Source: Ruania rhizosphaerae | GTDB taxonomy: Bacteria > Actinomycetota > Actinomycetes > Actinomycetales > Beutenbergiaceae | Direction: 5' to 3' | DNA length: 64,000 nt | NCBI RefSeq assembly: GCF_009805705.1 | Contig: NZ_VSMB01000006.1 | Coordinates: 1 to 64,000 of the forward strand | In this document: positions 8,546-56,112 of the stretch, in pieces | Position numbering within the stretch: the stretch's first letter is position 1 | Layout: each line of letters starts with the position of its first letter | Made by a program: the position numbers and the translations under genes | Notes under the pieces: model-generated | Seen by the model: the letters and a program-made list of their open reading frames with translations, nothing else | The model's database searches: none | Told to the model about the DNA's origin: nothing

Positions 8546-8643
8546 CGGAATCAAACGTCGATTCGGCTGGTCAGGCCAGCCAGATCGACGTTTGATTCCG
8601 GGGAGTGGGGCGGGTGAACAGCCAATTCGACGTTTGATTCCGG
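8546..8643. repeat. Tripartite palindromic element A (family ABC)
   Basis: A left arm starting CGGAATCAAACGTCGAT (8546-8562) pairs with a right arm ending ATCGACGTTTGATTCCG (8584-8600) through about 23 base pairs with a short central loop. A second right arm (AATTCGACGTTTGATTCCGG) follows at 8624-8643. The same left-right-right plan occurs at 56001-56112, and a left-right version at 15326-15384. It lies between the dehydrogenase gene and the LacI gene. Confidence 0.8.
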
Positions 8644-8674
8644 TGGGGGGTTGACGGGGCGCGCCACACGATGT

Positions 8675-8711
8675 TGACTACGTAGTCATGACCAAGATGA
8701 CTGCGCAGTCA
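8675..8711. promoter_or_regulatory. Twin LacI-type operators
   Basis: Two perfect 14-base palindromes, TGACTACGTAGTCA (8675-8688) and TGACTGCGCAGTCA (8698-8711), have centres 23 bases apart and each carries a central CG. They share the consensus TGACTRCGYAGTCA, the usual form for LacI-family operators. They overlap the beginning of the LacI coding frame, so they probably give autoregulation of the whole operon. Confidence 0.75.
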
Positions 8712-9764
8712 ACGAGGGGCGATGATGCCACCGGCAGCGCACCGCGACCTGTCATGACCGACGTCGCCCAGCGCGCAGGGGTCTCCCAGAAGACCGTCTC
8801 CCGCGTGGTGCGCGGCGAGGCGAACGTGAGCAACGCCGTCCGGGAGCGTGTGAACGCTGCCATCGCCGAGCTGGGCTTCCGGCCCAACGCCGCAGCCCGC
8901 GCCTTGGTCAGCAAGCGCAGCAACGCCGTCGGGATCCTTACCCCTGCTACGCCCCTGTATGGGCCCTCGGCGGAGTTGCTGGGCCTGGAGCGCGCCGCCG
9001 GCCGCGCCGGTCTGGCCGTGCTGATCGCCTCCGCCGAAGGTGGGGACGCCCAGACGGTCACTGCCGCGATCCGCCGGCTCGTCGACAGCGGCGTGGACGG
9101 CCTGCTCATGGGCAGCCTGCTCACCTCCGACGGCGTGGACGAGACCGAGCTGCACGGCAAGCCGGCCGTCGTCGTCGGCGATCCGCCCGAGGGGATGCAT
9201 CTGCCCGCAGCCGTCACCGATCAGAAAGCAGGAGCGCGTGCGGCGATCGAGCACCTGCTCACACTCGGCCACCGGACTGTGCACCACCTCGCCGGTCCAG
9301 CCGCCTGGCACTCCGCCGCCGCCCGCACCGAAGCCTGGCAGCAGGCGCTCCGATCGGCGGGCCGTCCGCTCACGACGCCCGCGATGGGCGACTGGACGTC
9401 CCGCTCCGGCTACGAGCTCGGCCGCCGGCTCGCCGCCGATCCTGACGTCACTGCCGTGTTCGTCGGCAACGATCAGATGGCGATCGGACTGCTGCGCGCG
9501 CTGGCAGAAGCGGGCCGCCGGGTGCCCGAGGACGTCTCGGTGGTCGGCTTCGATGACATCCCCGACGCCGAATACCTCCCCGTCCCACTGACCACCGTGA
9601 AACAGGACTTCCAAGAGCTGGCCGACCGCGCCGTCGAGATGTTCACCTCCCTGGTGGACGAAGGCGCCACCAACCACGCCGACCACCATGACGATCGCCT
9701 GATCGTCACCCCCGAGCTCGTCGTCCGGCGGAGCACCGCCCCGCCGCCGGCGCCTGGTCGCTGA
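8688..9764 (+). CDS. LacI family transcriptional regulator
   Basis: The protein (358 residues from this start) has a LacI helix-turn-helix starting MTDVAQRAGVSQKTVSRVV and the hinge helix region NAAARALVSKRS. The periplasmic-binding-like effector domain ends in GFDDIPDAEYLPVPLTTV. Family starts normally sit just before the helix-turn-helix, so the ATG at 8754 is a real alternative. The first 22 codons overlap two operator palindromes, which also speaks for a later start or a leaderless message. The gene precedes a sugar ABC transporter and GH42 beta-galactosidase and very likely represses them until a galactoside is present. Confidence 0.88.
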   Translation: MTKMTAQSTRGDDATGSAPRPVMTDVAQRAGVSQKTVSRVVRGEANVSNAVRERVNAAIAELGFRPNAAARALVSKRSNAVGILTPATPLYGPSAELLGLERAAGRAGLAVLIASAEGGDAQTVTAAIRRLVDSGVDGLLMGSLLTSDGVDETELHGKPAVVVGDPPEGMHLPAAVTDQKAGARAAIEHLLTLGHRTVHHLAGPAAWHSAAARTEAWQQALRSAGRPLTTPAMGDWTSRSGYELGRRLAADPDVTAVFVGNDQMAIGLLRALAEAGRRVPEDVSVVGFDDIPDAEYLPVPLTTVKQDFQELADRAVEMFTSLVDEGATNHADHHDDRLIVTPELVVRRSTAPPPAPGR

Positions 9765-9824
9765 GGCGACCACCCAGGCCCATCCGGGCCGACCACCCCT
9801 GATGTCTACGAGGAAGTAGCACTC

Positions 9825-11198
9825 ATGAAACCGCACCCCTTCCGCCGAACCGCAGCCCCGGTGGTGGCTTCCCTGAGCGCCCTGGCGCTCGTGGCCTGCA
9901 CCGGCGGGTCCGAGGACGGCTCCGACTCCGGCAACGGTGGCGGCGAGACCGAGGCGATCACCGCCGAACAGTTCGAAGAGGCGATGAGCACTCCCACCGA
10001 ACTCACCTTCTGGTCCTGGGTGCCCGACATCCAGAACCAGGTGGACATGTTCGAAGAGGCCTACCCCGAGATCGATGTCGACTACGTCAACGTCGGTCAG
10101 GGCGCCGAGCACTACCAGCAGATGCGCACAGCGATCCAGGCCGGTTCGGGTGCCCCCGACGTAGCCCAGGTGGAGTACCAGCACCTGGCCTCCTTCCGCC
10201 TTGGCGGCGACCTGCTCGACCTCACCCCGTACCTGCAGGAGGACCTCTCCGCCGCCTACCCGGACTGGGTGTGGAGTCAGGTGTCGGCCGACAGCGGCCT
10301 GTGGGGCATCCCGCAGGACACCGGCCCGCTCGGCAGCCTCTACCGCACCGACCTGTTCGCCGACGCCGGCATCGAGGTGCCCACCACCTGGGACGAGTTC
10401 GCGCAGGCCGCCGCCGACTACCGCGAGGCGATGCCGGACAGCTACCTCACGAACATGCCCGGCAACGATCCGGGCCAGTTCGTCGGGCTGCTCTGGCAGG
10501 CCGGGGCCCGCCCCTTCGCTTTCGACGGCGCAGAGACCGTGACCATCGACCTCGACTCTCCCGAGGTGCTTCAGGTGGTCGAGTACTGGCAGGGTCTGAT
10601 CGCCGACGACCTGGTCTCGGTCGATCCGGACTTCAACGACCAGTGGTACCAGGCGCTCGCCAACGGCAAATACGCCAGTTGGCAGGTGGCCGCCTGGGGG
10701 CCGGTGTTCCTGCAGGGAACCGCCGGCAACACCAGTGGCCTGTGGGCCGCCTCCACGCTGCCGCAGTGGGAGGAAGGCCAGAACATCTCCGGCAACTGGG
10801 GTGGGTCCACCGACGCGGTCCTCTCCTCGACCGACAACCCGATCGCGGCGACCGAACTGGCCCGGTGGATCAACGTCGACGAAGAGCCCGCCACAGCTTT
10901 CGCCGAGGAACAGTTCCTGTTCCCGCCATCGCTCAGCATCCTCGAGTCCGAGGAGTTCCTCGCCGAGGAATCCGAGTTCTACGGCGGCCAGCAGGTGAAC
11001 GCCACCTTCGCGGAGATCTCCGAGACGGTGCCCACCGATGACTTCGGGTGGCTGCCGTTCATGGACTTCGCCTACTCCGCCTACAACGAGACTCTCGGCA
11101 GCGCTATCGCCGACCGGGGTGATCTCGTGGCCGGGCTGCAGGCGTGGGAGGCCGAGCTGGTCGAGTACGCCGAGTCCCAGGGCTTCACGGTCGAGTGA
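9825..11198 (+). CDS. Sugar ABC transporter substrate-binding lipoprotein
   Basis: The 457-residue protein has a lipoprotein signal peptide with lipobox ALVAC and is a family-1 extracellular solute-binding protein. It has the expected early segment LTFWSWVPDIQNQVDMFEEAYP, an EYQHLASF segment and a middle containing YRTDLFADAGIEVPTTWDEF. GAGGAAG precedes the ATG. It should capture an oligosaccharide outside the membrane and hand it to the two permeases that follow. No ATPase gene is present in this operon, so a shared MsiK-type ATPase elsewhere in the genome is likely, as in many actinobacteria. Confidence 0.92.
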   Translation: MKPHPFRRTAAPVVASLSALALVACTGGSEDGSDSGNGGGETEAITAEQFEEAMSTPTELTFWSWVPDIQNQVDMFEEAYPEIDVDYVNVGQGAEHYQQMRTAIQAGSGAPDVAQVEYQHLASFRLGGDLLDLTPYLQEDLSAAYPDWVWSQVSADSGLWGIPQDTGPLGSLYRTDLFADAGIEVPTTWDEFAQAAADYREAMPDSYLTNMPGNDPGQFVGLLWQAGARPFAFDGAETVTIDLDSPEVLQVVEYWQGLIADDLVSVDPDFNDQWYQALANGKYASWQVAAWGPVFLQGTAGNTSGLWAASTLPQWEEGQNISGNWGGSTDAVLSSTDNPIAATELARWINVDEEPATAFAEEQFLFPPSLSILESEEFLAEESEFYGGQQVNATFAEISETVPTDDFGWLPFMDFAYSAYNETLGSAIADRGDLVAGLQAWEAELVEYAESQGFTVE

Positions 11199-11205
11199 GC
11201 GCGGT

Positions 11206-11234
11206 GGTGGGCGGCCGGTTGCCGGCCGCCCACC
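11206..11234 (+). terminator. Intercistronic hairpin after the binding-protein gene
   Basis: A perfect 13-base-pair stem (GGTGGGCGGCCGG with CCGGCCGCCCACC) encloses a three-base loop, seven bases after the stop codon. There is no T-run. It likely stabilises the 3' end of the binding-protein message or partly stops transcription, giving more binding protein than permease. Confidence 0.65.
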
Positions 11235-11274
11235 GCAGCTCCCGCCCCGGTCACCCATGCCCAAGGAGACGACG

Positions 11275-12219
11275 ATGACCTCCACCGCACCCCCTGCCCC
11301 GGCCCAGCCACGTCCGCAGCGCACCGCGAACACGCTCAGTACGCTCCGCCGTCGGGAAGCCCGCGCCGGCTACCTGTTCGTGCTGCCCTTCATGATCGTG
11401 TTCGTCGCGATGCTGATCGTGCCGCTCGGCTACTCCGGCTACCTGTCGGTGTTCCGCGAGCAGCTCATCGGCGGAACCTCGTTCGTGGGCCTGGAGAACT
11501 ATGCTCGCGCCCTCAGCGATGCCACCTTCACCGGCGGCGTGGCCCGGATGGCGTTGTTCCTGGTGATGCAGGTACCGATCATGCTCGGCCTGGCGCTGTT
11601 GTTCGCGCTGGTGCTGGACTCGGGTCGCTTGCGACTGCAGAAGTTCGTGCGCCTGGCGATCTTCATCCCCTACGCCGTTCCCGGTGTGATCTCGGCGCTC
11701 ATGTGGGGGTATCTCTACGGTCCCGACTTCGGCCCTTTCGCCCAACTCGGCGAGGCGACCGGGCTCGGCAGCCCGGACTTCCTCTCCGCCGACTTCATGT
11801 TGTTCTCGATCATGAACATCGTCACCTGGGGGTTCATCGGCTACAACATGATCATCATGTACTCGGCACTGCGGTCGATCCCCACCGAGATCTACGAGGC
11901 GGCGCGGGTCGACGGTGCCGGTGAGGTGCGCATCGCCACCGCCATCAAGATCCCGGCACTGCGCCCGGCACTGGTGCTGACCACCATCTTCTCGGTGATC
12001 GGAACCTTCCAGCTGTTCAACGAACCGAACATCCTACGCACCATCGCCCCGAATGTGATCGGCAACGGCTACACCCCGAACCTGTACGCCTACAACCTGG
12101 CCTTCGTGGGCCAGGAGGTGAACTACGCGGCCGCGATCGCCTTCCTGCTCGGCTTCGTGATCATGGTCGTCTCCTACATCTTCCAGCTCACCACCTCCCG
12201 GAAGGAGGCCACCCGATGA
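11275..12219 (+). CDS. Sugar ABC transporter permease (MalF type)
   Basis: This 314-residue inner-membrane protein has about six membrane helices and the permease EAA motif in the form EIYEAARVDGAGEVRIATAIKIPALRPAL. The start was chosen at the ATG after AAGGAG, five bases upstream; the longer frame lies inside the binding-protein gene. It works with the neighbouring permease to form the channel for the sugar. Confidence 0.92.
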   Translation: MTSTAPPAPAQPRPQRTANTLSTLRRREARAGYLFVLPFMIVFVAMLIVPLGYSGYLSVFREQLIGGTSFVGLENYARALSDATFTGGVARMALFLVMQVPIMLGLALLFALVLDSGRLRLQKFVRLAIFIPYAVPGVISALMWGYLYGPDFGPFAQLGEATGLGSPDFLSADFMLFSIMNIVTWGFIGYNMIIMYSALRSIPTEIYEAARVDGAGEVRIATAIKIPALRPALVLTTIFSVIGTFQLFNEPNILRTIAPNVIGNGYTPNLYAYNLAFVGQEVNYAAAIAFLLGFVIMVVSYIFQLTTSRKEATR

Positions 12220-13121
12220 CGGCGACCGCTTCCACATCCTCGACGCCCACCTCGCGTGGTCGTCGCCCCGGCGCGAAGGCCCGGCCGAGCATGCTGCTCA
12301 CCGTGGTGATGCTCGCCGTCGTGGCCTACTTCCTGCTCCCGCTGTGGTGGCTCTCGGTGGCCTCCACCAAGTCCAACGCCGACCTGTTCTCCTCCTTCGG
12401 GCTGTGGTTCGCCGACTCTTTCAGTCTGCTCGGCAACCTCGGCGACGTGTTCACCTTCCAGAACGGGATCTTTCTCGCCTGGGCCCGTAACACCGTCGTC
12501 TACGCCGGAGTCAGCGCCCTCGGTGCCGCCGTGCTCGCCACCGCAGCCGGATATGCGTTCGCCACGTTGCGATTCAAGGGCAGCACCGCACTGTTCGCGA
12601 TCATCCTCGGCTCGATCATGGTGCCCCTGACGGCGCTCGCGATCCCCACCTACCTGCTGTTCGCCAAGGTGGGACTGACCGATACCCCGTGGGCGGTGAT
12701 CCTGCCGTCGTTGGTGAGCCCGTTCGGGGTGTATTTGATGCGGGTGTATGCCGATGGGGCTGTCCCGCCCTCCTTGCAGGAGGCCGCGAGGGTTGACGGC
12801 GCAGGTGAGTTGCGCATCTTCGTCACCATCGTCTCGCGGTTGCTGGCGCCGGGATTCGTGACCGTGCTGCTGTTCGCACTCGTGAGTACCTGGAACAACT
12901 ACTTCCTGCCGCTGATCATGCTCAACAGCCCCGAGTGGTACCCGCTCACCGTGGGCCTGGCGCAGTGGCAGTCCACGTCGCAGGCAGGCTCGGGATCGCA
13001 GGCGTTGTTCTCGATGGTGATCACGGGTTCGCTGGTCTCCATCGTGCCGCTGGTGATCGCGTTCCTGTTCCTGCAGCGGTACTGGCAGTCCGGCCTGGGG
13101 ACCGGTGGTGTGAAGCAGTAG
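12216..13121 (+). CDS. Sugar ABC transporter permease (MalG type)
   Basis: The 301-residue protein has about six membrane helices, a cytoplasmic N-terminus of about 25 residues and the EAA loop SLQEAARVDGAGELRIFVTI. Its ATG overlaps the stop of the preceding permease by four bases. The C-terminal half contains FALVSTWNNYFLPLIMLNS, a typical MalG-like segment. Confidence 0.92.
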   Translation: MTATASTSSTPTSRGRRPGAKARPSMLLTVVMLAVVAYFLLPLWWLSVASTKSNADLFSSFGLWFADSFSLLGNLGDVFTFQNGIFLAWARNTVVYAGVSALGAAVLATAAGYAFATLRFKGSTALFAIILGSIMVPLTALAIPTYLLFAKVGLTDTPWAVILPSLVSPFGVYLMRVYADGAVPPSLQEAARVDGAGELRIFVTIVSRLLAPGFVTVLLFALVSTWNNYFLPLIMLNSPEWYPLTVGLAQWQSTSQAGSGSQALFSMVITGSLVSIVPLVIAFLFLQRYWQSGLGTGGVKQ

Positions 13122-13189
13122 CTACCCGTTCGCGCCGTCCGGCCACCCGCACGCACAACCCAGCACACACCTGCCGAAGGAGTTCTTCC

Positions 13190-15304
13190 TTGTCTGACCT
13201 GCCCGCCACCGACGTCAACGACCGCGTGCGTTTCGGTGCTGCCTACTACGTCGAGTACCACCCCACCGACGGCGACCGCGACCTGGAGCGTGACCTGGAC
13301 CTGATGGCCGAGGCCGGCTTCAGCGTGATCCGGGTGGGGGAGTCCACCTGGTCCACCTGGGAGCCGGAGGACGGCCGTTTCGAGCTCGACTGGCTCCAGC
13401 CGGTGCTCGACGGTGCGCAGGCGCGGGGGATCGACGTCATCCTCGGCACCCCCACCTATGCGGTGCCGCCGTGGCTGGCGCGCACGTACCCGGAGATCGC
13501 GGGGGAGCGGCGCACCGGTCAGCGCAATCACTGGGGCGCGCGGCAGGAGATGGATCTGACGCACGCCGCGTACAAGTTCTACAGCGAACGGGTGATCCGG
13601 GCCGTCGTCGGGCGCTATGCCGACCACCCGGCCGTGATCGGCTTCCAGGTGGACAACGAACCCGGCCTACAGCTGCTGCACAACGAGAACGTCTTCCAGG
13701 CGTTCGTGGACCACCTGCGGCATCAGTATGGCGATGTGGAGACGCTGAACCGCGAGTGGGGGCTGACCTACTGGTCGCACCGGCTCAGCACGTGGGCGGA
13801 TCTGTGGCGGCCCGACGGCAACGCGCAGCCGCAGTACGACCTCGCGTGGCGCCGCTTCCAGACGCAGCTGGTCACCGACTTCATCGCCTGGCAGGCCGGC
13901 ATCGTTCGCGAGATCGCTCCCGAGGGCAAGTTCGTGACGACCTGTATCGCCTACTCCCGCCCGGGTGTGGACGACCCGGAGCTGACGTGGGCACTGGACG
14001 TGACGGCGGGAAACCCGTACTACACGATGCAGGACGGATTGGCCCTGCCGTCGCCGGAGAACGTGCCGCAGGGGTGGACGACCACAGGCACCTGGACGAT
14101 CTTCCACAGCGCCGACCGGATGTACTCCTCCAAGCAGGCGCCGTTCCTGGTGACCGAGACGAATGCTGGCGCCATCGGGGGACCGGCCACGAATGTGCCC
14201 GCCTTCGACGGGCAGTGGCGGCAGGTCGCCTGGGCGATGATCGCTCGCGGTGCGCGGATGATCGAGTACTGGCACTGGCACACGTTGCACTACGGCACCG
14301 AGACCTACTGGATCGGGGTGCTGCCGCATGACCAGCAGCCGGGCCGAGTGTATGAGCAGTTGGCCGTGCTCGGTGGTGAGATCAAGACGGCTGAGGCTCA
14401 CCTGCATGGACTGGTGCCGGATGCCGAGGTGGGACTGTTGTGGTCGAACGAGTCCAAGCGTGGCCTGATGGGGCAGCCCTCGTTGGCTCAGCCGGATGGC
14501 TCGGGTGACGCCGGCAGTTACGAGCGGATTGTCGGTGCCTTCTACCGCGGGGCGTTCGAGGCCGGCGCGCCCGTGCGGATTGTGCACGACGGGCAGCTGG
14601 CGGCGCGCGAGCCGGGGGAGGTGGCTGGTGAACTGCCGGTGTTGCTGGTGCCGGCGCTGTATGTCGCTACTGATGAGCTGCTCGACTGGCTGCGGGCCTA
14701 TGCCGAGGCAGGGGGGCACCTGGTGCTTGGCCCGCGCACTGGCTATGCCGATGCTGAGGCGAGGGCCCGGTTGGAAGCCAAGCCCGGGCGCCTCGCCGAG
14801 CTGGCAGGCGTGGACTACCAGGAGTTCTCGAACCTCTCTGTGCCGGTGCCTGTGCGGGGGAGTGGGCTGGAGGTTCCCGAGGGTGCCGCCGCGACGGCCT
14901 GGGCGGACTACCTGCGGGTGTCCGGCAGTGTTGAGGTGCTGGTCGAGTACGACCACCCGGCTTTGGGCGCCTACCCGGCGGTGACGACTGCGTCCGCGGG
15001 AGCGGGGCGGGTGACGACGGTGGGGACCGTGCCGGACCCAGCGCTCGCGGCTGCCGTGCTGCGGTGGGTGGCGCCAGGTGAGGGCGATGCCTGGCGCGGG
15101 TTCACGGGTGGCTCAGTCACGGTGACCTCGGCGACCAACGGTGAGGGCCGCCGTCTGCGGGTGGTCCACAACTGGTCGTGGGAACCGGCGGAGGTCACGC
15201 TGCCGGCTGCCGTCACGGATCTGCTGGGTGACGGCATCAGTCTCGCCGCGGGCGAGAGGCTCGACCTGGGGCCGTGGGACGTGCGGGTGCTGCTGGAGGA
15301 CTGA
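13190..15304 (+). CDS. GH42 beta-galactosidase
   Basis: The 704-residue enzyme belongs to glycoside hydrolase family 42, which cleaves terminal beta-galactosides. The barrel has RVGESTWSTWEP early, the acid/base glutamate in QVDNEPG (E157) and the nucleophile in VTETNAG (E323). A glutamine-amidotransferase-like trimerisation domain (around 400-600) and a small C-terminal beta domain follow. The start is a TTG six bases after GAAGGAG; no ATG fits. There is no signal peptide, so it acts in the cytoplasm on sugar imported by the preceding transporter. Confidence 0.93.
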   Translation: MSDLPATDVNDRVRFGAAYYVEYHPTDGDRDLERDLDLMAEAGFSVIRVGESTWSTWEPEDGRFELDWLQPVLDGAQARGIDVILGTPTYAVPPWLARTYPEIAGERRTGQRNHWGARQEMDLTHAAYKFYSERVIRAVVGRYADHPAVIGFQVDNEPGLQLLHNENVFQAFVDHLRHQYGDVETLNREWGLTYWSHRLSTWADLWRPDGNAQPQYDLAWRRFQTQLVTDFIAWQAGIVREIAPEGKFVTTCIAYSRPGVDDPELTWALDVTAGNPYYTMQDGLALPSPENVPQGWTTTGTWTIFHSADRMYSSKQAPFLVTETNAGAIGGPATNVPAFDGQWRQVAWAMIARGARMIEYWHWHTLHYGTETYWIGVLPHDQQPGRVYEQLAVLGGEIKTAEAHLHGLVPDAEVGLLWSNESKRGLMGQPSLAQPDGSGDAGSYERIVGAFYRGAFEAGAPVRIVHDGQLAAREPGEVAGELPVLLVPALYVATDELLDWLRAYAEAGGHLVLGPRTGYADAEARARLEAKPGRLAELAGVDYQEFSNLSVPVPVRGSGLEVPEGAAATAWADYLRVSGSVEVLVEYDHPALGAYPAVTTASAGAGRVTTVGTVPDPALAAAVLRWVAPGEGDAWRGFTGGSVTVTSATNGEGRRLRVVHNWSWEPAEVTLPAAVTDLLGDGISLAAGERLDLGPWDVRVLLED

Positions 15305-15759
15305 GGCACGGCATCGCCCTCACATCAGAAATCCCTCGTCGATCTGGCTGGACAAGTGTCCAGCCAGATCGACGAGGGATTCTGTGAATGGGGTGGACCG
15401 GCCTGTGTCAGCGTCATACGGATCTGTTGTTCAGTACCCGGTCGGTGTAGGCGATGCTGCGGAATGCGCCTTGTCAGGAGGGCCGCGCTCGGTGGCCACG
15501 TGAGAGATTCCTGGCAGCGGTCGCCGTCCGTCTGATCCACAGCGATCGTGAGAATCGCTCAGGCCTCTGATGGCGTGAACCGCAGTAGCAGAGCAGTGCA
15601 GATTATCGATCTACCCCGACGCGATCGGAATCCAGCGATTACGATAAAAGATCGCCGCTGGGGCCATTGATACTTGGGACCCATTCCAGTGCACTGGAGT
15701 GAAGGCGTGCTTCCGCTTGGTGTGCGTCGATCTGTCGTCGATCATGGATCGGGGTATCA
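15305..15759. other. Intergenic region of 455 bases
   Basis: Apart from palindromic element B near its left end, no gene is seen here. The right part (about 15560-15760) is more AT-rich than its neighbours and probably holds the promoter of the beta-helix gene. TACGATAAAAGATC near 15640 is the most promoter-like segment. Confidence 0.5.
15326..15384. repeat. Palindromic element B (family ABC)
   Basis: The left arm (CAGAAATCCCTCGTCGATC onward) and right arm (to GATCGACGAGGGATTCTG) form an almost perfect stem of about 28 base pairs with a two-base centre and one bulged A. It begins 21 bases after the GH42 stop and may serve as a terminator. The core GTCGATCTGGCTG is shared with elements A and C. 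Confidence 0.8.
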
Positions 15760-19131: not shown

Positions 19132-19281
19132 GTGATCGGCATGGACGGCCGCTGACGGGGGTCTCGGTGGAATCCGGCAGTGCGATGTCTATCCATGGGC
19201 CTTGGGCGGGGTGAGATGTGTCCGATGTCGGTCTATCCACAGCCCCCTCGGGTTGTCCGGCAGGGTTGGGGTGGCCAGATC

Positions 19282-19287
19282 TACGGT
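19282..19287 (+). promoter_or_regulatory. -10 box TACGGT of a leaderless promoter
   Basis: TACGGT ends six bases before the ATG at 19294. The same hexamer and spacing precede the paralogue at 36831, which argues that the two genes share one start and one promoter type. Confidence 0.6.
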
Positions 19288-19293
19288 GCACGA

Positions 19294-20319
19294 ATGGCGA
19301 ACAGAAGTGAGCATCCCAACCCGCATGATGCGATGTTCCGGGCAGTCGTGCAGGAGCCGGTGCATGCGGCCTCGGTACTGGCTGCGGCCCTGCCTGAGCA
19401 GGTCACCGGTCGGTTGGACCTAGACGCGTTGCGGCTGGAACCGGGCAGCTTCGTGGACGAGGACATGCGGGAACGGCACACCGACTTGTTGTTCAGCACC
19501 CGCCTCAACGGCAACCCCGCACTGGTGTATGTCCTGGTCGAACATCAGTCCAGTCCGGACCAGTGGATGGCGTTTCGGATGCTGGACTACGTCACCCGCA
19601 TCTGGCGGCGCCACCTCGACCAGAGATGCAACTCAAGTCGTGGCTGGTCGCCGGCGCTGCTGCCACCGGTGGTGCCGGTGGTGATCTACCGGGGCACGCG
19701 GCGGTGGAATGCACCGACCAGTCTGGACGGGCTGTATGAACCCGTCCTCGAGGAAGTGTTGGGTGATCTCTTGCCGCGGCTTCGGTATGTGTTGCACGAC
19801 CTGACCGGGGTGGACGTGCGGGATTTGCTAGCGGCGCCGTTGACCCCGGCGGCCCGGGTGGCGTTCGCGATGCTGTGCTACGCCCCGCGTCAGCAGCGCC
19901 TGGACCGGGTGCTGGCGGACTTCACCCCGGATGTGCTGGAGCTGATAAGAACCCGGGCGGATCGGATGTTCGCAACTATTATGGGGTACGCCTACCAGGT
20001 CAGCGATACCCCACCGGCGCTGGTGCGCCGGTTCTTCGAAGACCTGGGATCACACGCACAGGAGGCCTACATGTCCACCACGCTCGAACGAGGCATCGCA
20101 GAAGGGCGTGCCGAAGGCGCCGCCAAGGGCCGAGCCGAAGGTCGCGCCGAAGGTCGCGCCGAAGGAGTCGCGGAAACCCTCGCCCGTCTCCTGGTCAAGC
20201 GGTTCGGACCCCTCACCCCCGAGCAGACCACCAAGATCGAGTCCGCGACCCCCGACCAACTCGACACCTGGGTCGACCGGGTCTTCGACGCCACCAGCAT
20301 TGAGGGCGTCCTCAACTGA
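19294..20319 (+). CDS. Rpn/YhgA-family recombination-promoting nuclease homologue
   Basis: The 341-residue protein is a PD-(D/E)XK nuclease-like protein of the Rpn (YhgA-like putative transposase) family. The N-terminal half has PHDAMFRAVV, SFVDEDMRERHTDLLF and LVEHQSSPDQWMAFRMLDY, which contain the expected Asp, Glu and Gln. The C-terminal part has a run of Glu-Gly-Arg/Lys tetrads (about residues 270-295) and ends in a RLLVKRFGPLTPEQT module. An in-frame upstream extension is rejected because the paralogue shares only the shorter start and a -10 box lies six bases before it. E. coli Rpn proteins cut DNA and promote RecA-independent recombination. Confidence 0.82.
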   Translation: MANRSEHPNPHDAMFRAVVQEPVHAASVLAAALPEQVTGRLDLDALRLEPGSFVDEDMRERHTDLLFSTRLNGNPALVYVLVEHQSSPDQWMAFRMLDYVTRIWRRHLDQRCNSSRGWSPALLPPVVPVVIYRGTRRWNAPTSLDGLYEPVLEEVLGDLLPRLRYVLHDLTGVDVRDLLAAPLTPAARVAFAMLCYAPRQQRLDRVLADFTPDVLELIRTRADRMFATIMGYAYQVSDTPPALVRRFFEDLGSHAQEAYMSTTLERGIAEGRAEGAAKGRAEGRAEGRAEGVAETLARLLVKRFGPLTPEQTTKIESATPDQLDTWVDRVFDATSIEGVLN

Positions 20320-36583: not shown

Positions 36584-36818
36584 ATTGATGTGAGTGTCGT
36601 AGCCAAGTATCTATACGGGCCAGCGGCAACCGCCATTGACGGGCTGATTCTTCTTTGTCCGAACGGACGACGTGGACGGCTCGGCCAGCGTGACCATCAG
36701 CGCATTCGGTGGCATCGCGGTCTGTGCGCCATGGACGAACCAGGGAACGGACGTGGGTCCGTCGCCGGGTTCTCCACAACCCCCTCGAGCGATGTCGGTG
36801 GGTGGGGGTGGCGAGTTC

Positions 36819-36824
36819 TACGGT
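36819..36824 (+). promoter_or_regulatory. -10 box TACGGT of a leaderless promoter
   Basis: TACGGT is followed by six bases and the ATG at 36831, identical in sequence and spacing to the box before the paralogue at 19294. Confidence 0.6.
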
Positions 36825-36830
36825 GCCCGG

Positions 36831-37826
36831 ATGGTGAACCGAGGAGAGCGGCCGGGCCCGCATGATGCGATGTTCCGCAAAGTCGTGGGCGTGCCGGCGA
36901 ATGCGGCCTCCGTCCTGGCCGCGGTGTTGCCACCGGAGGTCGCGACCGGGTTGGACCTGGAGGGTCTGCGGCTTGAGTCGGGTAGCTTCGTGGACGAAGA
37001 GATGCGTCAGCGCCACACCGACCTGCTCTTCAGTACGCGGCTGAACAAGAATCCGGCGCACGTGCTGGTTCTGGTGGAGCACCAATCGAGGCCGGATCGG
37101 TGGATGGCGTCGCGGGTGCTGGAGTACGTCACGCGCATCTGGGACCAGCACCGCGCCCAGCACCCTGGCGAGCGAACCTTGCCGGCGGTCCTACCTGTGG
37201 TGGTCTACCAGGGTCGGCGCCGATGGAACGCGCCCACTGCCCTGGAGGATCTGTACGAACCGGACACCGAGCAGCTGCTGGGCGAGTTTCTACCTCGGCA
37301 CCGGTTCGTGCTGCAGAACCTGACCGGGGTGGACGCCGAGAACCTGCTGGCCGCCCCGTTGACGCCGGCGGCCCGGCTGGCGTTGGCGATGCTGCGGTTC
37401 GCTCCCAGGCAGGAGCACCTGGCCCATGTACTGGAGGAGTTCACCACAGACGTCGTGGAGTTGGTGCGAACCCGGGCGGATCGGATGTTCACGATTATCA
37501 TGGAGTACGCCTATCAGGTCAGCGATACCGAACCGGAAGAGCTGCAGGCGTTCTTCCACCGGCTCGGACCAGATGCACAGGAGGCCTACATGTCCACCAC
37601 ACTCGAACGAGGCGTCGCACAAGGCGTTGCCAAGGGCCGAGCCGAAGGCGTTGCCAAGGGCCGAGTTGAAGGCGTCGCGGAGACCCTCGCCCGTCTCCTG
37701 GTCAAGCGGTTCGGTCCCCTCACCCCCGAGCAGACCACCAAGATCGAGTCCGCGACCACCGACCAACTCGACGCCTGGGTCGACCGGGTCATCGACGCCA
37801 CCAGCATTGATGACGTCCTGCGCTGA
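36831..37826 (+). CDS. Rpn/YhgA-family recombination-promoting nuclease homologue
   Basis: The 331-residue protein is the third Rpn-like copy. PHDAMFRKVV, GSFVDEEMRQRHTDLLF and LVEHQSRPDRWMASRVLEY carry the PD-(D/E)XK Asp, Glu and Gln. The C-terminal tetrads read VAKGRAEGVAKGRVEG, different from the other copies. The N-terminal half shares about two-thirds of residues with the copy at 19294, but the last 150 bases are almost the same in DNA. The upstream frame extension is rejected because it is not shared with the paralogue. Confidence 0.82.
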   Translation: MVNRGERPGPHDAMFRKVVGVPANAASVLAAVLPPEVATGLDLEGLRLESGSFVDEEMRQRHTDLLFSTRLNKNPAHVLVLVEHQSRPDRWMASRVLEYVTRIWDQHRAQHPGERTLPAVLPVVVYQGRRRWNAPTALEDLYEPDTEQLLGEFLPRHRFVLQNLTGVDAENLLAAPLTPAARLALAMLRFAPRQEHLAHVLEEFTTDVVELVRTRADRMFTIIMEYAYQVSDTEPEELQAFFHRLGPDAQEAYMSTTLERGVAQGVAKGRAEGVAKGRVEGVAETLARLLVKRFGPLTPEQTTKIESATTDQLDAWVDRVIDATSIDDVLR

Positions 37827-49811: not shown

Positions 49812-49814
49812 TTC

Positions 49815-50570: not shown

Positions 50571-50576
50571 TAGGAT
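50571..50576 (+). promoter_or_regulatory. -10 box TAGGAT of a leaderless promoter
   Basis: TAGGAT is seven bases before the ATG of metG at 50584 and supports this start over the in-frame ATG at 50563. Confidence 0.55.
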
Positions 50577-50583
50577 CGAGTCC

Positions 50584-52380
50584 ATGACCCACATCCTCTC
50601 GGCCGTGGCGTGGCCCTACGCCAACGGCCCCCGGCACATCGGTCACGTCGCAGGTTTCGGCGTCCCCTCGGACGTCTTCAGCCGGCACATGCGGATGGCG
50701 GGTCACGACGTGCTGATGATCTCCGGCACCGATGAGCATGGCACCCCGATCCTGGTGCAGGCCGAGCAGGAGGGCGTCTCCCCGCAGGAGCTGGCCGACC
50801 GCTACAACCGGGTCATCGTGGAAGACCTCACCTCCCTGGGTCTGTCCTACGACCTGTTCACCCGCACCACCACGCGCAACCACTACGCCGTCGTGCAGGA
50901 GATGTTCCGCACGGTGCACAAGAACGGGTACATGGTGGAGAAGACCACCATGGGTGCCATCTCGCCCTCGACGGGGCGCACCCTGCCGGACCGCTTCATC
51001 GAGGGCACCTGCCCGATCTGCGGCTACGACGGCGCCCGGGGCGACCAATGCGACAACTGCGGCAACCAGCTTGACCCGATCGACCTGAAGAACCCGCGCA
51101 GCCGCATCAACGGCGAGACGCCCAAGTTCGTCGAGTCCAATCACTTCTTCCTCGACCTGCCGGCCTTCGTGGACGCCCTCGCCTCCTGGCTGGAGACCCG
51201 CGACGGGTGGCGCCCGAACGTGCTCAACTTCAGCCGCAACCTGCTCGACGACGTGCGCCCTCGAGCCATGACCCGCGACATCGACTGGGGCATCCCGGTG
51301 CCGCTGGACGGCTGGGAGAACAACCCCAGCAAGCGGCTGTACGTGTGGTTCGACGCCGTCATCGGCTACCTGTCCTCCTCGATCGAGTGGGCCCGGCGCC
51401 AGGGCACCCCGGAGGCCTGGCGCGACTGGTGGACCAACCCCGACGCGCGCTCGTACTACTTCATGGGTAAGGACAACATCACCTTCCACTCCCAGATCTG
51501 GCCGGCCGAACTGCTGGCCTACGACGGCGGAGGCTCGCGTGGGGGAGAACCAGGCGCTTTCGGTTCGCTCCAACTACCGACCGAGGTGGTCAGCTCGGAG
51601 TTCCTGAATGTGGAGGGGCAGAAGTTCTCCTCCTCCCGTGGTGTGGTCATCTACGTGCGGGACATGCTCGCCCGCTACCAGCCGGACGCCTTCCGTTACT
51701 ACGTGGCCGCCGCAGGTCCGGAGAACCAAGACGTCGACTTCACCTGGGAGTCCTTCCTGAGCCGCACCAACGATGAGCTCGTCGCCGGCTGGGGCAATCT
51801 GGTCAACCGGACCGCGAGCATGGTGGCGAAGAACTTCGGTGAGATCCCGAGTCCGGGCGATGTCGCGGATGTTGACAGAAACATCCTCGCCACCACGAAC
51901 AAGGCCTTCACGACGGTGGGTTCGGCGATCGAGGCGAACCGGCAACGGCACGCGATCTCGGAGGCGATGCGGACCGTCGCCGAGGTGAACCGGTACGTCT
52001 CCGAGACTCAGCCCTGGAAACTGAAGACGGACCCGGAGCGTCTGGCCACCGTGCTGCACACCACGACCCAGGCCGTGAGTGACTGCAATACGTTGCTTGC
52101 CCCGTTCCTGCCGCACTCCGCCCAGGACGTGCACACCACATTGGGAGGTAGCGGAACCTTCGCTCCGCAGCCACGGATCGAGGAGGTCACCGACCTCGAC
52201 GACGACTCCCGCGAGTACCCGGTGATTACCGGCGACTACAGCCAGATGCCCTCCTGGGAGTCCCGCCCCGTCGTGCCCGGAACCTCGATTGCGAAACCGA
52301 CCCCGGTGTTCACTAAGCTGGACGACTCGATCGTCACCGAGGAACTGGAGCGGCTGCGCGAGAAGGCCGATGGCGCGTAA
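50584..52380 (+). CDS. metG: Methionyl-tRNA synthetase
   Basis: The 598-residue enzyme charges tRNA-Met. The HIGH motif is at residues 18-21, the zinc knuckle has four cysteines in [19 protein letters not shown], the KMSKS loop reads KFSSSRG, and a helical anticodon domain follows with [10 protein letters not shown]. Length fits the family; the C-terminal dimer domain of some MetG proteins is absent. It is the first gene of a metG-tatD unit. Confidence 0.96.
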
Positions 52381-53278
52381 GCGCGAGAAGGGCTTCCCGC
52401 CCGCCCCCGAGCCACTTCCGGTCGCCGTGGTGGACAACCACACGCATCTGGAGTCCATCGCCGGTGTCCTTCCCGACGACGTGCCCGACCCTGGTCTGAG
52501 TGGTCACCTCGAGCAGGCCCGCGCGGTAGGGGTGACGGCGATGGTGCAGATCGGTTGCGATCTGGACTCTGCCCGTTGGAGCGTGCACGCAGCCCAGCAG
52601 TATCCCGAGCTCGTTGCCGGGGTGGCGATCCACCCGAACGAGGCCGTGCTGCACGCAGGCGTCCGGGAGGTGGCCCCCGATGGTCTGGATCCAGATCCGC
52701 GGGCCCGGCACGAGAAGAATTTGGATGAGGCGATCGCGGAGATCGCCGAGCTGGCCCGGGCAGATCGAGTACGCACGGTGGGTGAGAGCGGGCTGGACTA
52801 CTTCCGCGCCGGTGAGCAGGGACGCGCAGCGCAGCGGGACGCGTTCCGCGCGCACATCGCACTCGCCAAGGAGTTGGACCTGCCGCTGCAGATCCACGAC
52901 CGTGAGGCTCATGAGGATGTGCTCGAGGTGTTGAAGCAGGACGGTGCGCCGCGGCGCACCGTGTTCCACTGCTTCTCGGGGGACGCCGAGATGGCAGCCG
53001 AGTGCGTGCGGCGCGGCTACTACCTCTCCTTCTCCGGCACCGTCACGTTCAAGGCTGCGGATGAGATCCGCTCGGCAGCGATGCTCGCGCCGGCTGAGCA
53101 GCTGCTCGTGGAGACGGACGCGCCCTACCTGACCCCGCACCCCTACCGCGGACGGCCGAATGCCCCCTACCTGGCAGCGCACACGCTACGCGTGCTCGCC
53201 GAGGTGCGTCAGGAGCGACTGGAGACGCTCTGCGACATGGTCCGGACGACGTCGGAGGAAATCTACGGACCCTGGTGA
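52370..53278 (+). CDS. tatD: TatD family metal-dependent deoxyribonuclease
   Basis: The 302-residue protein has the TatD fold: DNHTHLES near the start, [39 protein letters not shown] and [15 protein letters not shown], which bear the metal ligands. The ATG lies 11 bases inside the metG end and is preceded by GAGAAGG, so the two are coupled. TatD proteins are 3'-5' exonucleases in DNA repair. Confidence 0.93.
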
Positions 53279-53346
53279 AGCACGTGCGCCGGTCGTGACA
53301 CATCCCACGATGCGGGCAAGATTCGACCCGGAATCTGGCACATCAG

Positions 53347-53365
53347 GTCACGAATCGGTTACGGT
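53347..53365 (+). promoter_or_regulatory. Promoter of the first wall lytic gene with GTCAC-N6-GTTAC motif
   Basis: GTCACGAATCGGTTAC (53347-53362) is followed by the rest of a -10 box, TACGGT at 53360-53365. The same arrangement is found before rpfB at 54597-54615. The direct half-sites 11 bases apart recall MtrA-type boxes; that name is a suggestion only. Confidence 0.5.
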
Positions 53366-53420
53366 CAGGGGGCGGCCCATCCCTCCTGGGTCGCTCAAGG
53401 CAAGAACAGGACCCCTCCCC

Positions 53421-54509
53421 GTGCCCCAGAGCAACACCACGTCCCGCCACCGTGCGGACGCCCCAGTCGCCACTACTCTCCCCCGTCCGATCCGTCGCGC
53501 GATCGGCGCCGCCGGTCTTGCCGTCGTCCTCGCCGGCTCGCTTGCCTTTGCGGCTACGCAGTCCTCGGGCGGTGACAACATGGCCGAGCAGGCGACTCTC
53601 GCCGGCGCCGGGCAGTACAGCGTCGACCGGACCGACTACTGGAACCAGGTCTCCCGCGGCGGGGACAGTGCGCGCGAGGCGCTGAACGAGGCAGGGGAGT
53701 CCGTCTCGTTCTCCGTGACTGTCGATGATCGTGAGGTGGAGATCACCTCCAACGCGCAGACCCTGGCTGACGCTCTCATCGAGAACGGCATCGTCGTCGG
53801 TCTGGATGACAACGTCTCGGTCCCGATGAACAGCCTTCCCACTGAGGGTGCGGACGTCCAGATCGAACGCGTGGGTACCGTGTTCGGCACGGAGACCGAG
53901 ACCCTCGAATACGAGACCATCGAACGCGAGACCTCCGCTCTGGAGCGGGGGGAGACGCGCACCGAGACCGAGGGCCGTGAGGGGTCACGGGTTCTCGCGT
54001 ACACCGCCGTGTACGAGGGCGGTGAGGAGGTCTCCCGGACCACGACCGCCGAGATCCTGGTGTCGGCACCGGTGGATGAGGTCATCCTCGTCGGCACGGC
54101 TGCGCCGCAGCCTGCCGCGACTTCCAGCTCGTCGAGTTCGTCGCAGTCGGACTCCAGCGAGTCATCAGCCTCCAGTGAGTCGTCAGCCCCCAGCGGCAGT
54201 TACTCCGGGAGCGACCCGCGCTCCATCGCCCGCCAGATGGTCGAGGCACGTGGCTGGGGCAGCGATCAGTGGAGTTGCCTGGATTCTCTCTGGCAGCGCG
54301 AGAGCAACTGGAACCCCTACGCACAGAACCCGACGTCGGGTGCCTACGGGATCCCCCAGTCGCTGCCTGGTTCGAAGATGGGCTCGGTTGCCTCGGACTG
54401 GCGAACCAATCCGGTCACCCAGATCACGTGGGGCCTGAACTACATCTCCGGCCGGTACGGCACCCCGTGCGGCGCCTGGGGCCACTCCCAGTCCGTCGGC
54501 TGGTACTGA
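53421..54509 (+). CDS. Secreted G5-domain protein with transglycosylase-like C-terminus
   Basis: From the GTG the protein has 362 residues. A signal or anchor helix is at about 25-45, one DUF348 domain at about 85-140, and a G5 domain at about 140-215 with ETLEYETIERET. A Ser-rich linker of about 40 residues leads to a lytic C-terminus (about 275-362) with CLDSLWQRESNWNPYAQNP and SGAYGIPQSLPGSKM, which fits a lysozyme-like transglycosylase with the catalytic Glu in RESNW. It cuts or remodels peptidoglycan outside the cell. It shares plan and promoter with the next gene, rpfB, but the catalytic domain is of another type. Confidence 0.88.
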   Translation: MPQSNTTSRHRADAPVATTLPRPIRRAIGAAGLAVVLAGSLAFAATQSSGGDNMAEQATLAGAGQYSVDRTDYWNQVSRGGDSAREALNEAGESVSFSVTVDDREVEITSNAQTLADALIENGIVVGLDDNVSVPMNSLPTEGADVQIERVGTVFGTETETLEYETIERETSALERGETRTETEGREGSRVLAYTAVYEGGEEVSRTTTAEILVSAPVDEVILVGTAAPQPAATSSSSSSSQSDSSESSASSESSAPSGSYSGSDPRSIARQMVEARGWGSDQWSCLDSLWQRESNWNPYAQNPTSGAYGIPQSLPGSKMGSVASDWRTNPVTQITWGLNYISGRYGTPCGAWGHSQSVGWY

Positions 54510-54596
54510 GCCGGGAGTGACCGCGTCCGAACGACCGAGCGTGGCGCGCGGCAGCACCACGTGCGCAGGCTCACAGCCGCCCGCCTCGACCACCGC

Positions 54597-54615
54597 ATAA
54601 CGATTGGGTTACATT
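54597..54615 (+). promoter_or_regulatory. Promoter of rpfB with ATAAC-N6-GTTAC motif
   Basis: ATAACGATTGGGTTAC (54597-54612) agrees with the motif before the preceding wall lytic gene in 12 of 16 positions. The -10 box TACATT (54610-54615) overlaps its end, giving an untranslated leader of about 100 bases. Confidence 0.5.
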
Positions 54616-54725
54616 CGACAGGTCGCGGGCCCTGTTGAGGGTGCTGATCTGCGCCTCCCGCCCGAACAGCGGCGCCTGTGCGCCGCTGAACTCCTGAAAC
54701 CCCCTCCCCCTCCAGAGGATGTCCT

Positions 54726-55988
54726 GTGTCTTTCTTCCGCCGCACCGCCGAGCCCAGCCCCGCCGATCCCGGGGAGTCCTGGGACGTGCCTGAGACCGAG
54801 GCACAGCCATCGTCCCCCGCTCACGGCCGTCGCCGACGGGTGATCGTGGGAAGCGTCGCTGCGGTCGCGCTCGTGCTCGGCGGCTCCACCGCCGCGATCG
54901 CCGCCGCGCACAAGTCCGTCGAGATCGACCTCAACGGCCAGACCTACAGCCACAGCACCTTCGCCGGGGACGTCGACGGACTGCTCGAGGAAGCCGGTAT
55001 CGACCTCGGACCCCACGATGAGGTCGTGCCCGGCGTCGACGAGCGCCTGACCGACAACGCCGAGATCGTCGTCCGTACCGCCCAGCAGTTGACGATCACC
55101 GAGGGAGGCCAGGAACGAACCATCTGGACCACTGCCCTCTCCGCAGCCGGTGCGCTTCAGGATCTGGCCGCCACGGGGCGCGAGGCATCGGTGGTGGCGT
55201 CCCGGTCCTCCGACGGACGCGCCGACCTCGACCTTCCGCTGGCGGTCGATGGCGAGATCGTCATCGCCGTCGACGGGGAGGAACGCACCGTGAACACTGA
55301 CGGCGCCGTCTCCCTCGCCGAGGTGCTCCTACGCGCTGAGGTCGAGCTCGGAGCGCAGGACGACGCCACGGTCACGAGCGCCGACGGTGAGGTCCTCGTC
55401 ACGGTGACCCGCCGGTCGACCGAGACCGAGACGCAGACCGAGGTCATCGAGTACGAGTCCTCCGAACGTGGAACCGATGAGCTCTACGTCGGCCAGTCCC
55501 GGGTGGTGCAGGACGGTCAGGACGGCGAACGCACGCTGGAGGTCGTCAACCAACTCGTCAACGGTGAGGTGGTGAGTACGAAGGTCACCTCCGACGAGGT
55601 CACGACGGAACCGGTCACCGAGGTCACCGAGGTCGGGACTGCCGAGCGGCCCGCGCCGGAGCCCACCACGTCCAGCAGCTCGGGCAGCTCCAGCTCCTCG
55701 GGTTCCTCCAGCTCCTCGAGCTCTTCCGGTGGGTCGAGTTCGGCCGGCAGTGGCGTGTGGGCAGCTCTCGCACAGTGCGAGTCCGGTGGCAACCCGCAGA
55801 TCGTCAGCTCCAACGGCCTCTACTACGGCCTGTACCAGTTCACAGTGAGCACTTGGCAGTCGGTGGGCGGGTCGGGCCTTCCGACCGAGGCTTCCGCCGC
55901 CGAGCAGACTCAGCGTGCCCAGGCGCTGCAGGCACGCTCCGGCTGGGGGCAGTGGCCCCACTGCGCCGCGCAGCTCGGTCTCCTCTGA
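54726..55988 (+). CDS. rpfB: Resuscitation-promoting factor RpfB
   Basis: The 420-residue protein has a membrane anchor at about 40-62, DUF348 repeats (about 65-230) and a G5 domain (about 235-305, TEVIEYESSERGT). A linker of mostly Ser and Gly (about 315-343) leads to the Rpf lysozyme-like domain (about 344-420). The catalytic Glu is in AALAQCESGGNPQ, with YYGLYQFTVSTWQSVGG and a WPHCAAQLG end. Rpf enzymes cut peptidoglycan and help dormant cells resume growth. The start is GTG after GAGGATG. Confidence 0.95.
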   Translation: MSFFRRTAEPSPADPGESWDVPETEAQPSSPAHGRRRRVIVGSVAAVALVLGGSTAAIAAAHKSVEIDLNGQTYSHSTFAGDVDGLLEEAGIDLGPHDEVVPGVDERLTDNAEIVVRTAQQLTITEGGQERTIWTTALSAAGALQDLAATGREASVVASRSSDGRADLDLPLAVDGEIVIAVDGEERTVNTDGAVSLAEVLLRAEVELGAQDDATVTSADGEVLVTVTRRSTETETQTEVIEYESSERGTDELYVGQSRVVQDGQDGERTLEVVNQLVNGEVVSTKVTSDEVTTEPVTEVTEVGTAERPAPEPTTSSSSGSSSSSGSSSSSSSSGGSSSAGSGVWAALAQCESGGNPQIVSSNGLYYGLYQFTVSTWQSVGGSGLPTEASAAEQTQRAQALQARSGWGQWPHCAAQLGLL

Positions 55989-56000
55989 GCCCGGTCCGCT

Positions 56001-56112
56001 CCAGAAATCGCTCGTCGATCTGGCTGCTCACGAGCAGCCAGATCGACGAGCGATTTCAGGTTTCGGTGACACACGAGTGAGGGTGGCAGCCAGATCGACG
56101 AGCGATTTCTGG
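56001..56112. repeat. Tripartite palindromic element C (family ABC)
   Basis: The left arm from CCAGAAATCGCTCGTCGATC and the right arm up to GATCGACGAGCGATTTCAGG form a long stem with a two-base centre (56003-56059). A second right arm GCAGCCAGATCGACGAGCGA follows from 56087. It begins 13 bases after the rpfB stop, like element B after GH42. Confidence 0.8.

Follow-up and report, generated by a model that had tools for sequence, protein, structure and literature searches.

Helically phased arrays of an asymmetric arm in Ruania: sites of a putative DNA-binding protein and candidate chromosome landmarks

A 64,000-nucleotide stretch of the Ruania rhizosphaerae genome (the window; contig NZ_VSMB01000006.1, positions 1–64,000) contains three palindrome-like elements, A, B and C, that belong to a large family of repeats whose basic unit is a single asymmetric arm of about 23 bp rather than a hairpin. 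On balance, we favor the view that these elements are arrays of helically phased sites for one putative protein and that they most likely serve as chromosome landmarks. The landmark role by itself is drawn by analogy and is put forward tentatively, and we infer both the binding protein and its cooperative binding.

Elements of the window and the family at large

According to the first-pass annotation of the window, the three elements share a core and its reverse, and eight arms are indeed present as described. CGTCGATNTGGCTG with up to two mismatches is matched 14 times in the window compared with a mean of 3.49 in shuffled sequences (0 of 100 reached 14), and eight of the 14 matches are the arms of A (three), B (two) and C (three). 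Element A consists of arms at 8547–8569 (plus strand, PWM score 29.7, AATYNNWCGTCGAWNYGG matched exactly), 8577–8599 (minus strand, PWM score 35.7, 30 bp core-to-core from arm 1) and 8619–8641 (minus strand and thus oriented like arm 2, PWM score 32.5, core-to-core distance 42 bp), element B of arms at 15328–15350 (plus strand, PWM score 38.5) and 15361–15383 (minus strand, PWM score 35.4, core-to-core distance 33 bp), and element C of arms at 56004–56026 (plus strand), 56035–56057 (minus strand, core-to-core distance 31 bp) and 56087–56109 (minus strand, core-to-core distance 52 bp), each with a PWM score of 39.3. The left-right-right plan reported for A and C was recovered as the arm order + − − in both. 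An NNW triplet is identical across all arms of each element, also as reported (AAA in A, CCT in B and GCT in C); in L169, the counterpart of element A in a complete sister genome (G004), all three arms have ACA. The counterpart of element C in the same genome, L170, contains two copies of the 52-bp unit.

The distance from the stop codon to the start of the 23-bp motif is 94 bp for A, 23 bp for B and 15 bp for C, and the placement of B and C shortly after a stop codon was thereby confirmed. Pfam assignments identify the upstream neighbor of B as a gene for a beta-galactosidase (GH42), the gene before C as one encoding DUF348, G5 and transglycosylase-like domains, and a gene downstream of C as ksgA-like. 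Predicted RNA folding, a check proposed at first pass, is far stronger for A, B and C than for shuffled sequences (z = −6.4, −12.4 and −9.1). As to T-tailed terminators, which the elements had been said not to resemble, no terminator-like T-run is seen by eye in A and C. A terminator-like scan of positions 8400–15600, which covered only A and B, returned three hits that represent one and the same hairpin on the minus strand of B with a short T-rich tail, and 1.7 hits are expected from shuffled sequences. The sole entry that reached its gathering score in an Rfam scan of the window was a tRNA; the elements were unmatched.

Eight genomes of the genus were compared, including G004 and the window's own genome (G000). 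Among named organisms, DnaA comes closest to that of Serinibacter arcticus (84%), Occultella glacieicola (83%) and an Actinomycetales MAG (84%). Further genomic copies had been set as a test beforehand, and G000 contains 145 exact arms (AATYNNWCGTCGAWNYGG), with 0 matches to a reversed-pattern control. Its 66 elements hold 161 arms, one to five each and in mixed orientations; 13 are single arms, and 53 have two or more. The multi-arm elements start with a plus arm and finish with a minus arm in 51 of 53 cases in G000 and in 34 of 37 cases in G004. Twelve layouts occur among the 66 elements, two of which are of the ++ type. Left-right-right is one of these twelve and accounts for 3 of 66 elements; the earlier idea that this plan could provide two alternative hairpins is not supported. 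As judged by a home-made gene caller, 56 of the 66 elements are intergenic, and the anticipated relation to gene ends was borne out, a stop codon lying no more than 30 bp away from 40 of these 56; 19 are flanked by convergent and seven by divergent genes.

Exact arms number 145, 97, 24, 11, 5, 2, 0 and 0 in the eight genomes (11 in G006, 2 in G003). In an order-wide screen, 5 of 396 genomes were positive, every one of them in this genus. Beyond it, matches are isolated, and, by this sequence criterion, the arm family is genus-specific and would be either young or fast-changing. The strict paired pattern was not found in named organisms of a contig collection that may omit near relatives, a prior description of the elements was not found among the literature titles listed, and papers containing CGTCGATCTGG are unrelated, as judged by title.

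Helical phasing and arm covariation

In G000, core-to-core distances group near 20.5, 31, 41.5 and 52 bp. For the 93 gaps between neighbors at most 60 bp apart, the period is 10.48 bp (95% CI 10.21–10.80) with R = 0.83, compared with a maximum of 0.39 in 500 simulations, and sister genomes gave R = 0.84 (G004, n = 56) and R = 0.82 (G005, n = 11). The point that recurs at approximately whole turns, whatever the orientation of the arms, is the core dyad TCG-T-CGA. Evaluated at 10.5 bp, R amounts to 0.87 for +− (n = 56), 0.73 for ++ (n = 18) and 0.89 for −− gaps (n = 13), while all six −+ gaps measure 12–14 bp and set a phase without giving a period. Off-phase exceptions occur at core distances of 28, 39, 48 and 65 bp. 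Since direct repeats, which are unable to pair with each other, are phased as well, RNA hairpins do not account for the layout, and it is a putative DNA-binding protein that would explain it instead.

An orthologous counterpart in G004 exists for 47 of the 66 elements (the called layout agrees in 27 of them and differs in 20); as the compared species are related, orthologous elements are non-independent evidence. In the 34 of 53 multi-arm elements that were aligned, changes between G000 and G004 affect 18 of 1029 core sites, 43 of 398 variable positions and 105 of 923 spacer sites (p = 1.6e-19), and as read from these substitution counts the core is under purifying selection. Spacer lengths are the same in 39 cases and differ by 1 bp in four, by 24 bp in one and by 52 bp in one.

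The first-pass annotation had interpreted the matching bases as stem pairing that is kept while the sequence drifts. The arms do vary together, as neighboring inverted pairs have an identical NNW triplet in 36 of 57 cases (10 expected), and compensating changes were also found: both arms changed between G000 and G004 at 10 positions, nine of them alike, where 4.7 and 1.8 are expected from a position-by-position shuffle of the right arms, a procedure that allows for pile-up at variable positions. Pairing as the purpose of this agreement is unsupported, given the phasing of direct arms and the many mismatching neighbors in larger elements. Agreement falls with loop length from 10 of 10 and 18 of 26 to 7 of 18 (gaps 22–25) and 0 of 2, and 0 of 6 diverging arms match. 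The same triplet is also common to direct-repeat neighbors of one class (++, 9 of 19 versus 2.8 by chance; −−, 3 of 13 versus 1.6), and the covariation is therefore partly homogenization and not pairing. Mismatches in elements between plus-strand genes comprise 15 G-U and 15 A-C (plus strand) and thus show no G-U bias; the '−−' gene set, with one G-U and two A-C on the plus strand, is too small. Fading agreement with loop length and the lack of a G-U preference fit homogenization at the DNA level, and the matching triplets are best read as such homogenization of inverted or tandem copies at positions that the protein would not read.

Chromosomal position and the proposed landmark role

The largest element-free gap in G004, in which dnaA lies at position 806, spans 1.018 Mb (1.519–2.537 Mb) and was equalled in 1 of 20,000 uniform draws; this test was confined to G004 and used the 50 of its 53 elements that have an exact arm. 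In this one complete genome, the terminus region is shown to be void of exact arms, the terminus having been placed mainly as opposite dnaA with a weak GC skew. A Rayleigh test of origin-ward bias in the G004 element positions gave p = 0.04 only. Within 120 kb sampled from the void, no arm scored 18 or more, and intergenic gaps were as frequent there as elsewhere; a 15-kb segment of the void has pieces in common, at 93% identity, with a G000 contig (C2) that contains no exact arm.

We propose that the elements are arrays in which one putative sequence-specific DNA-binding protein would occupy between one and five asymmetric sites of about 23 bp. Spacings of mostly two to five helical turns would bring the bound molecules onto one face of the DNA, where they could touch or bridge, and the outermost sites would nearly always face inward. 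The approximately 66 elements, mostly intergenic, often just past stop codons and located on the origin side away from the terminus, might then be landmarks by which the protein marks or anchors the nucleoid on the origin side, a role that the sites of the cell-division regulators SlmA and Noc play in nucleoid occlusion. Both SlmA and Noc sites are short single sites, whereas the Ruania arms are asymmetric, about 23 bp long and grouped into phased arrays with at most five arms. In the sections of the literature available to us, SlmA and Noc sites are described as dozens of sites dispersed on the origin side with none around the terminus, and Noc sites are termed palindromic (PMC4331003, PMC3573117). 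Dispersal on the origin side and absence round the terminus are what these sites share with the elements of G004. Each of the eight genus genomes has exactly one HTH_ParB match, i.e., no Noc, in contrast to the Noc system, and a Noc paralog (second ParB) was rejected as the binding protein.

Competing explanations and implications

That the elements are RNA hairpins at gene ends, either bidirectional terminators or stabilizers of mRNA 3' ends, was the view taken at first pass and now appears unlikely. It draws on the strong predicted folds, on convergent flanking genes and on nearby stop codons, as terminators would show, and pairing would also yield both the alike double changes and the triplets common to inverted neighbors. 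Mismatches in convergent-gene elements are 11 G-U versus 7 A-C, and in G003 different palindromes occupy two element-orthologous places, so gene ends may favor hairpins for a separate reason: GGTCGTCATGTCAG with its reverse complement occurs three times, once at the position orthologous to L120 (an element of five arms), and where L118 would lie there is a CGTCGGCCTGG palindrome (a diverged arm with at most one mismatch was not found in the 400 kb adjoining dnaA of G003). Against these points stand the phase that direct-repeat arms share with inverted ones, the single-arm and ++ elements, the balanced G-U count between plus-strand genes, the elements between divergent genes, the T-run that is missing from A and C and present on the minus strand only in B, and a variable triplet next to almost invariant core bases. 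Polar blocks of the Tus-Ter type are an analogy in principle for another reading, in which inward-facing arrays bound by the putative protein would act as roadblocks or insulators that halt RNA polymerase at gene ends. The same phasing and inward polarity would apply, and the gene-end position would fit, but the 1.02-Mb terminus void and the location of 7 of 56 intergenic elements between divergent genes would be left unexplained, and we consider this reading improbable.

We regard a REP/BIME-like or MITE-like non-autonomous mobile family as similarly improbable. REP/BIME sequences are portrayed, in the part of the source at hand, as extragenic, composite, of mixed orientation and present in more than 100 copies, with modified copies keeping the palindrome (PMC2817692); the Ruania elements are likewise extragenic, composite, in both orientations and above 100 copies, and their copy number varies widely across sister species (145 down to 0). 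Unlike REP/BIME, they lack a GTAG tag in the arm consensus and have longer, helically phased arms, a phasing unexpected for a mobile family, and their unit length is not constant; orthologous positions are largely stable, with the core conserved and the spacers less so. Mobilisation of the RAYT/REP type was discarded, as the Y1 transposase (PF01797) was found in 0 of 8 genus genomes at E ≤ 0.001 and in 5 of 14 control genomes. In the portion of the source seen, CGTC-tagged REPs lie mostly downstream of genes, no dedicated transposase is known for them, and a palindrome of 20–40 bp bears CGTC as an unpaired tag on one of its ends; five phyla are named there for CGTC repeats, Actinobacteria not among them (PMC3733652). 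The Ruania arms also contain CGTC, lie mostly downstream of genes and have no known dedicated transposase, but their CGTC is internal (positions 8–11 in the consensus of 161 arms) rather than an unpaired end tag. It is very improbable that the arms are sites of Rpn/YhgA-like nucleases (PF04754), of which the lineage has several copies. Matches (11 in G000, 8 in G004, 4 in G005, 2 in G002 and 0 in G006, G001, G003 and G007) roughly parallel the arm counts, and arms lie on both sides of one copy, L135, and likewise of its equivalent in G004; yet G006, with its 11 arms, yields no match, the other listed copies, including those of the window, have no arm scoring at least 9 within about 3 kb (121 bases on one side at a contig start), and, with a query from G000, kinship alone could yield the ranking and distant copies were possibly missed. 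A DUF559 gene with arrays on either side of it in both G000 and G004 (L128, L177) was also rejected, because its matches elsewhere are weak and do not track arm number.

The reading of the elements as phased sites of one protein also cautions against taking a palindrome for an RNA structure merely because its arms match; the spacing of direct repeats helps to decide. It is conceivable, if rather doubtful, that the arrays serve as chromosomal addresses for a so far unrecognized protein of this actinobacterial genus that acts in nucleoid occlusion or chromosome positioning and evolved independently of SlmA and Noc; if so, this system would differ from SlmA and Noc sites by its phased multi-site architecture. 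In Streptomyces, as stated in the excerpt consulted, functional homologs of known nucleoid-occlusion systems have not been identified (PMC7968930). Terminus-avoiding, helix-phased arrays in an actinobacterium would offer a concrete handle on a missing chromosome-landmark protein, and the arms may be long and specific enough for its one-step pull-down.

Copy number, form and placement of the arms

Inspection of the sequence confirmed the three palindromic elements of the window, A (8546-8643), B (15326-15384) and C (56001-56112), as described in the first-pass annotation, and their common core was matched 14 times in the window with up to two mismatches versus 3.49 matches expected. The further copies predicted for the rest of the genome were indeed found: in the 4.43-Mb, 43-contig assembly that contains the window (G000), AATYNNWCGTCGAWNYGG is present in 145 exact copies (73 forward, 72 reverse), while the reversed pattern, used as a control, had no match in that assembly. 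When the 53 stretches surrounding arms outside the window were retrieved and one mismatch per arm was allowed, the total rose to 66 elements with at least 161 arms, i.e., the 145 exact ones and at least 16 with one mismatch; these counts exclude a weak cluster at 30.8 kb of the window. One arm is present in 13 elements, two in 28, three in 10, four in 13 and five in 2. Alignment of the arms yielded an asymmetric motif of about 23 bp, G-R-AAT-Y-NNW-CGTCGAT-N-TGG-Y-N-G, with C-rich flanks. In our reading of this consensus, positions 2-9 and 13-20 of the arm (ATCNNNCG) form a weak direct repeat of 11 bp, a possible lead towards a protein with head-to-tail binding.

A home-made gene caller placed 56 of the 66 elements between genes (29 tandem, 19 convergent, 7 divergent, 1 without assignment). 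The proposed relation to gene ends was borne out when positions were counted against stop codons: 40 of the 56 intergenic elements lie within 30 bp of a stop codon and 9 within 30 bp of a start codon, with median distances of 17 and 74 bp, respectively. The other ten elements, six single arms and those at L127, L139, L141 and L151, overlap predicted genes. The elements of the window have unremarkable neighbours, namely genes for a GH42 beta-galactosidase, a LacI regulator, an oxidoreductase and a beta-helix protein, a transglycosylase-like gene and ksgA. A run of GGCCC repeats lies upstream of element A at about 8455-8480, right behind a stop codon at 8452.

Spacing, polarity and sequence constraint

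Gaps between neighbouring arms in G000 fall mostly into three classes, 3-4, 13-14 and 24-25 bp, and a few measure about 34 bp. The best-fitting period was 10.48 bp (95% CI 10.21-10.80; R = 0.83, n = 93 gaps of up to 60 bp), the maximum R in 500 uniform simulations with all periods scanned being 0.39. At 10.5 bp, R was 0.73 for ++ (n = 18), 0.89 for -- (n = 13) and 0.87 for +- neighbours (n = 56); all six -+ gaps fall at 12-14 bp and are hence uninformative on the period. Distances between the pseudo-dyads (TCG-T-CGA) cluster near 20.5, 31, 41.5 and 52 bp, with off-phase values of 28, 39, 48 and 65 bp. Phasing recurs in two other species, in the complete sister genome G004 (R = 0.84, 56 gaps) and in G005 (R = 0.82, 11 gaps); since many elements of G004 have orthologues in G000, these results do not count as independent. 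Polarity is strict, with 51 of 53 multi-arm elements in G000 starting with a + and finishing with a - arm. A hairpin cannot set this spacing because direct repeats are unable to base-pair with each other; we infer that B-DNA carrying proteins on one face can account for it.

BLAST hits on both flanks allowed 34 of the 53 multi-arm elements to be aligned to G004, the other 19 being excluded for want of two-sided hits or for implausible length. Changes affected 18 of 1029 core positions, 43 of 398 variable positions and 105 of 923 spacer positions, a count that excludes 12 of 92 arms as missing or gapped. Core and spacer rates differ strongly (Fisher p = 1.6e-19), and the selection of arms in G000 introduces some bias into this test, which we estimate to be below the sixfold difference. 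Spacer length was preserved in 39 of the 45 cases that could be compared; four spacers differ by one bp, one by 24 bp and one by 52 bp, the last being in element C, whose 52-bp unit is present twice in G004 (L170).

Matching triplets between arms

The first-pass annotation had interpreted the covariation of arms as maintenance of stem pairing. Neighbouring arms do share the variable triplet NNW more often than expected in +- (36/57, expected 10) and in ++ orientation (9/19, expected 2.8), with 3/13 (1.6) for -- and 0/6 (0.8) for -+. Among +- pairs separated by no more than 60 bp, the matching fraction declines with the gap, from 10/10 at 3-4 bp through 18/26 at 11-17 bp and 7/18 at 22-25 bp to 0/2 beyond. 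Counterparts in G004 were found for 47 of the 66 elements, with the same called layout in 27 and different called arms in 20. In the 22 +- pairs of the former, 51 changes concern one arm and ten positions changed on both, nine of them alike, versus 4.7 double (P = 0.006) and 1.8 alike changes (0/5000) expected when right arms were shuffled per position. In element A, AAA in three arms stands against ACA in three arms in G004 (L169), a change that may have run in either direction. Covariation as such stood, and its interpretation as stem pairing was not supported. With mismatches of +- pairs in G000 scored as + strand, G-U, A-C and other mismatches numbered 15, 15 and 23 between + strand genes and 1, 2 and 2 between - strand genes, so that a wobble preference is absent, in small numbers, where the transcribed strand is known; the counts were 11, 7 and 12 between convergent and 6, 1 and 13 between divergent genes. 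We take the matching triplets as repeat homogenisation at positions that the putative binding protein does not read, for which template switching in hairpins is a possible mechanism. RNA pairing as an additional role of the arms is conceivable.

Chromosomal distribution, relatives and classification

The G004 genome consists of a single contig of 4.449 Mb, on which dnaA lies at base 806. Its elements with an exact arm (50 of 53 retrieved) leave a gap of 1.018 Mb (1.519-2.537 Mb); one uniform draw in 20000 gave a gap as large, and the second-largest gap in G004 is 0.42 Mb. The origin-ward mean of these elements reaches only p = 0.04 in a Rayleigh test. The weak GC skew has a positive sign in 11 of the 13 samples taken up to 2.18 Mb and a negative one in 6 of the 7 samples from 2.29 Mb onwards, a change that would place the terminus inside the gap. 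No arm scoring at least 18 was present in eight samples (120 kb) inside the gap; eleven samples outside (165 kb) held ten, all in two samples with known elements. The gap-edge sample L223, without an arm of up to two mismatches, was excluded from both sets, and intergenic gaps of at least 60 bp numbered 50 in the samples from the gap versus 71 in those from outside. A 15-kb stretch located at 1.96 Mb has pieces that share 93% identity with contig C2 of G000, which carries none of the 145 exact arms. These pieces also match two places in contig C1 of G005, both inside 1.12-2.07 Mb, a region empty among the arms listed for that genome, whose elements are too few to test.

Within the genus, exact arms number 145 in G000, 97 in G004, 24 in G005, 11 in G006, 5 in G002, 2 in G003 and none in G001 and G007. 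Among 16 other genomes of the family, exact arms occur in G008 only (2), and a slightly altered pattern has one match each in G008 and G023. The paired pattern was found in 5 of 396 genomes of the order, each a member of this genus. G003, with its two exact arms, has a palindrome unlike the arms, GGTCGTCATGTCAG and its reverse complement with 0-3 mismatches 20 bp apart, at positions 81541, 200829 and 218655 of contig C2 (L241 and L247); one of these sits where the five-arm element L120 is.

Neither a RAYT nor a Noc-like second ParB was found in the genus genomes. Two kinds of array-flanked gene, Rpn-like and DUF559, were considered as candidate partners, and support was obtained for neither. 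In the window, Rpn/YhgA-like sequences (PF04754 and DUF4351) comprise two genes (19180-20319 and 36672-37826) and a piece with one internal stop (122-592), all on the + strand. A query of this type matched 11 pieces in G000, and four sister species gave no match. The DUF559 gene has arms on both sides in G000 and G004 (L128, 3016-3894; L177) and only weak matches in other genomes.

One article describes SlmA and Noc sites over the origin-proximal two thirds of the chromosome and missing from the terminus (PMC3573117), and another describes about 70 Noc sites likewise spread origin-side with none in the terminus (PMC4331003). The arrays resemble such nucleoid-occlusion sites in distribution but differ in site form and known protein. 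Since this likeness is partial and the arrays lack some of the tested features of REP/BIME and CGTC-REP, we file them under no known family. The family itself is real, genome-wide and under selection, and is best explained as arrays of sites for a putative DNA-binding protein, which may be nucleoid-occlusion-like.
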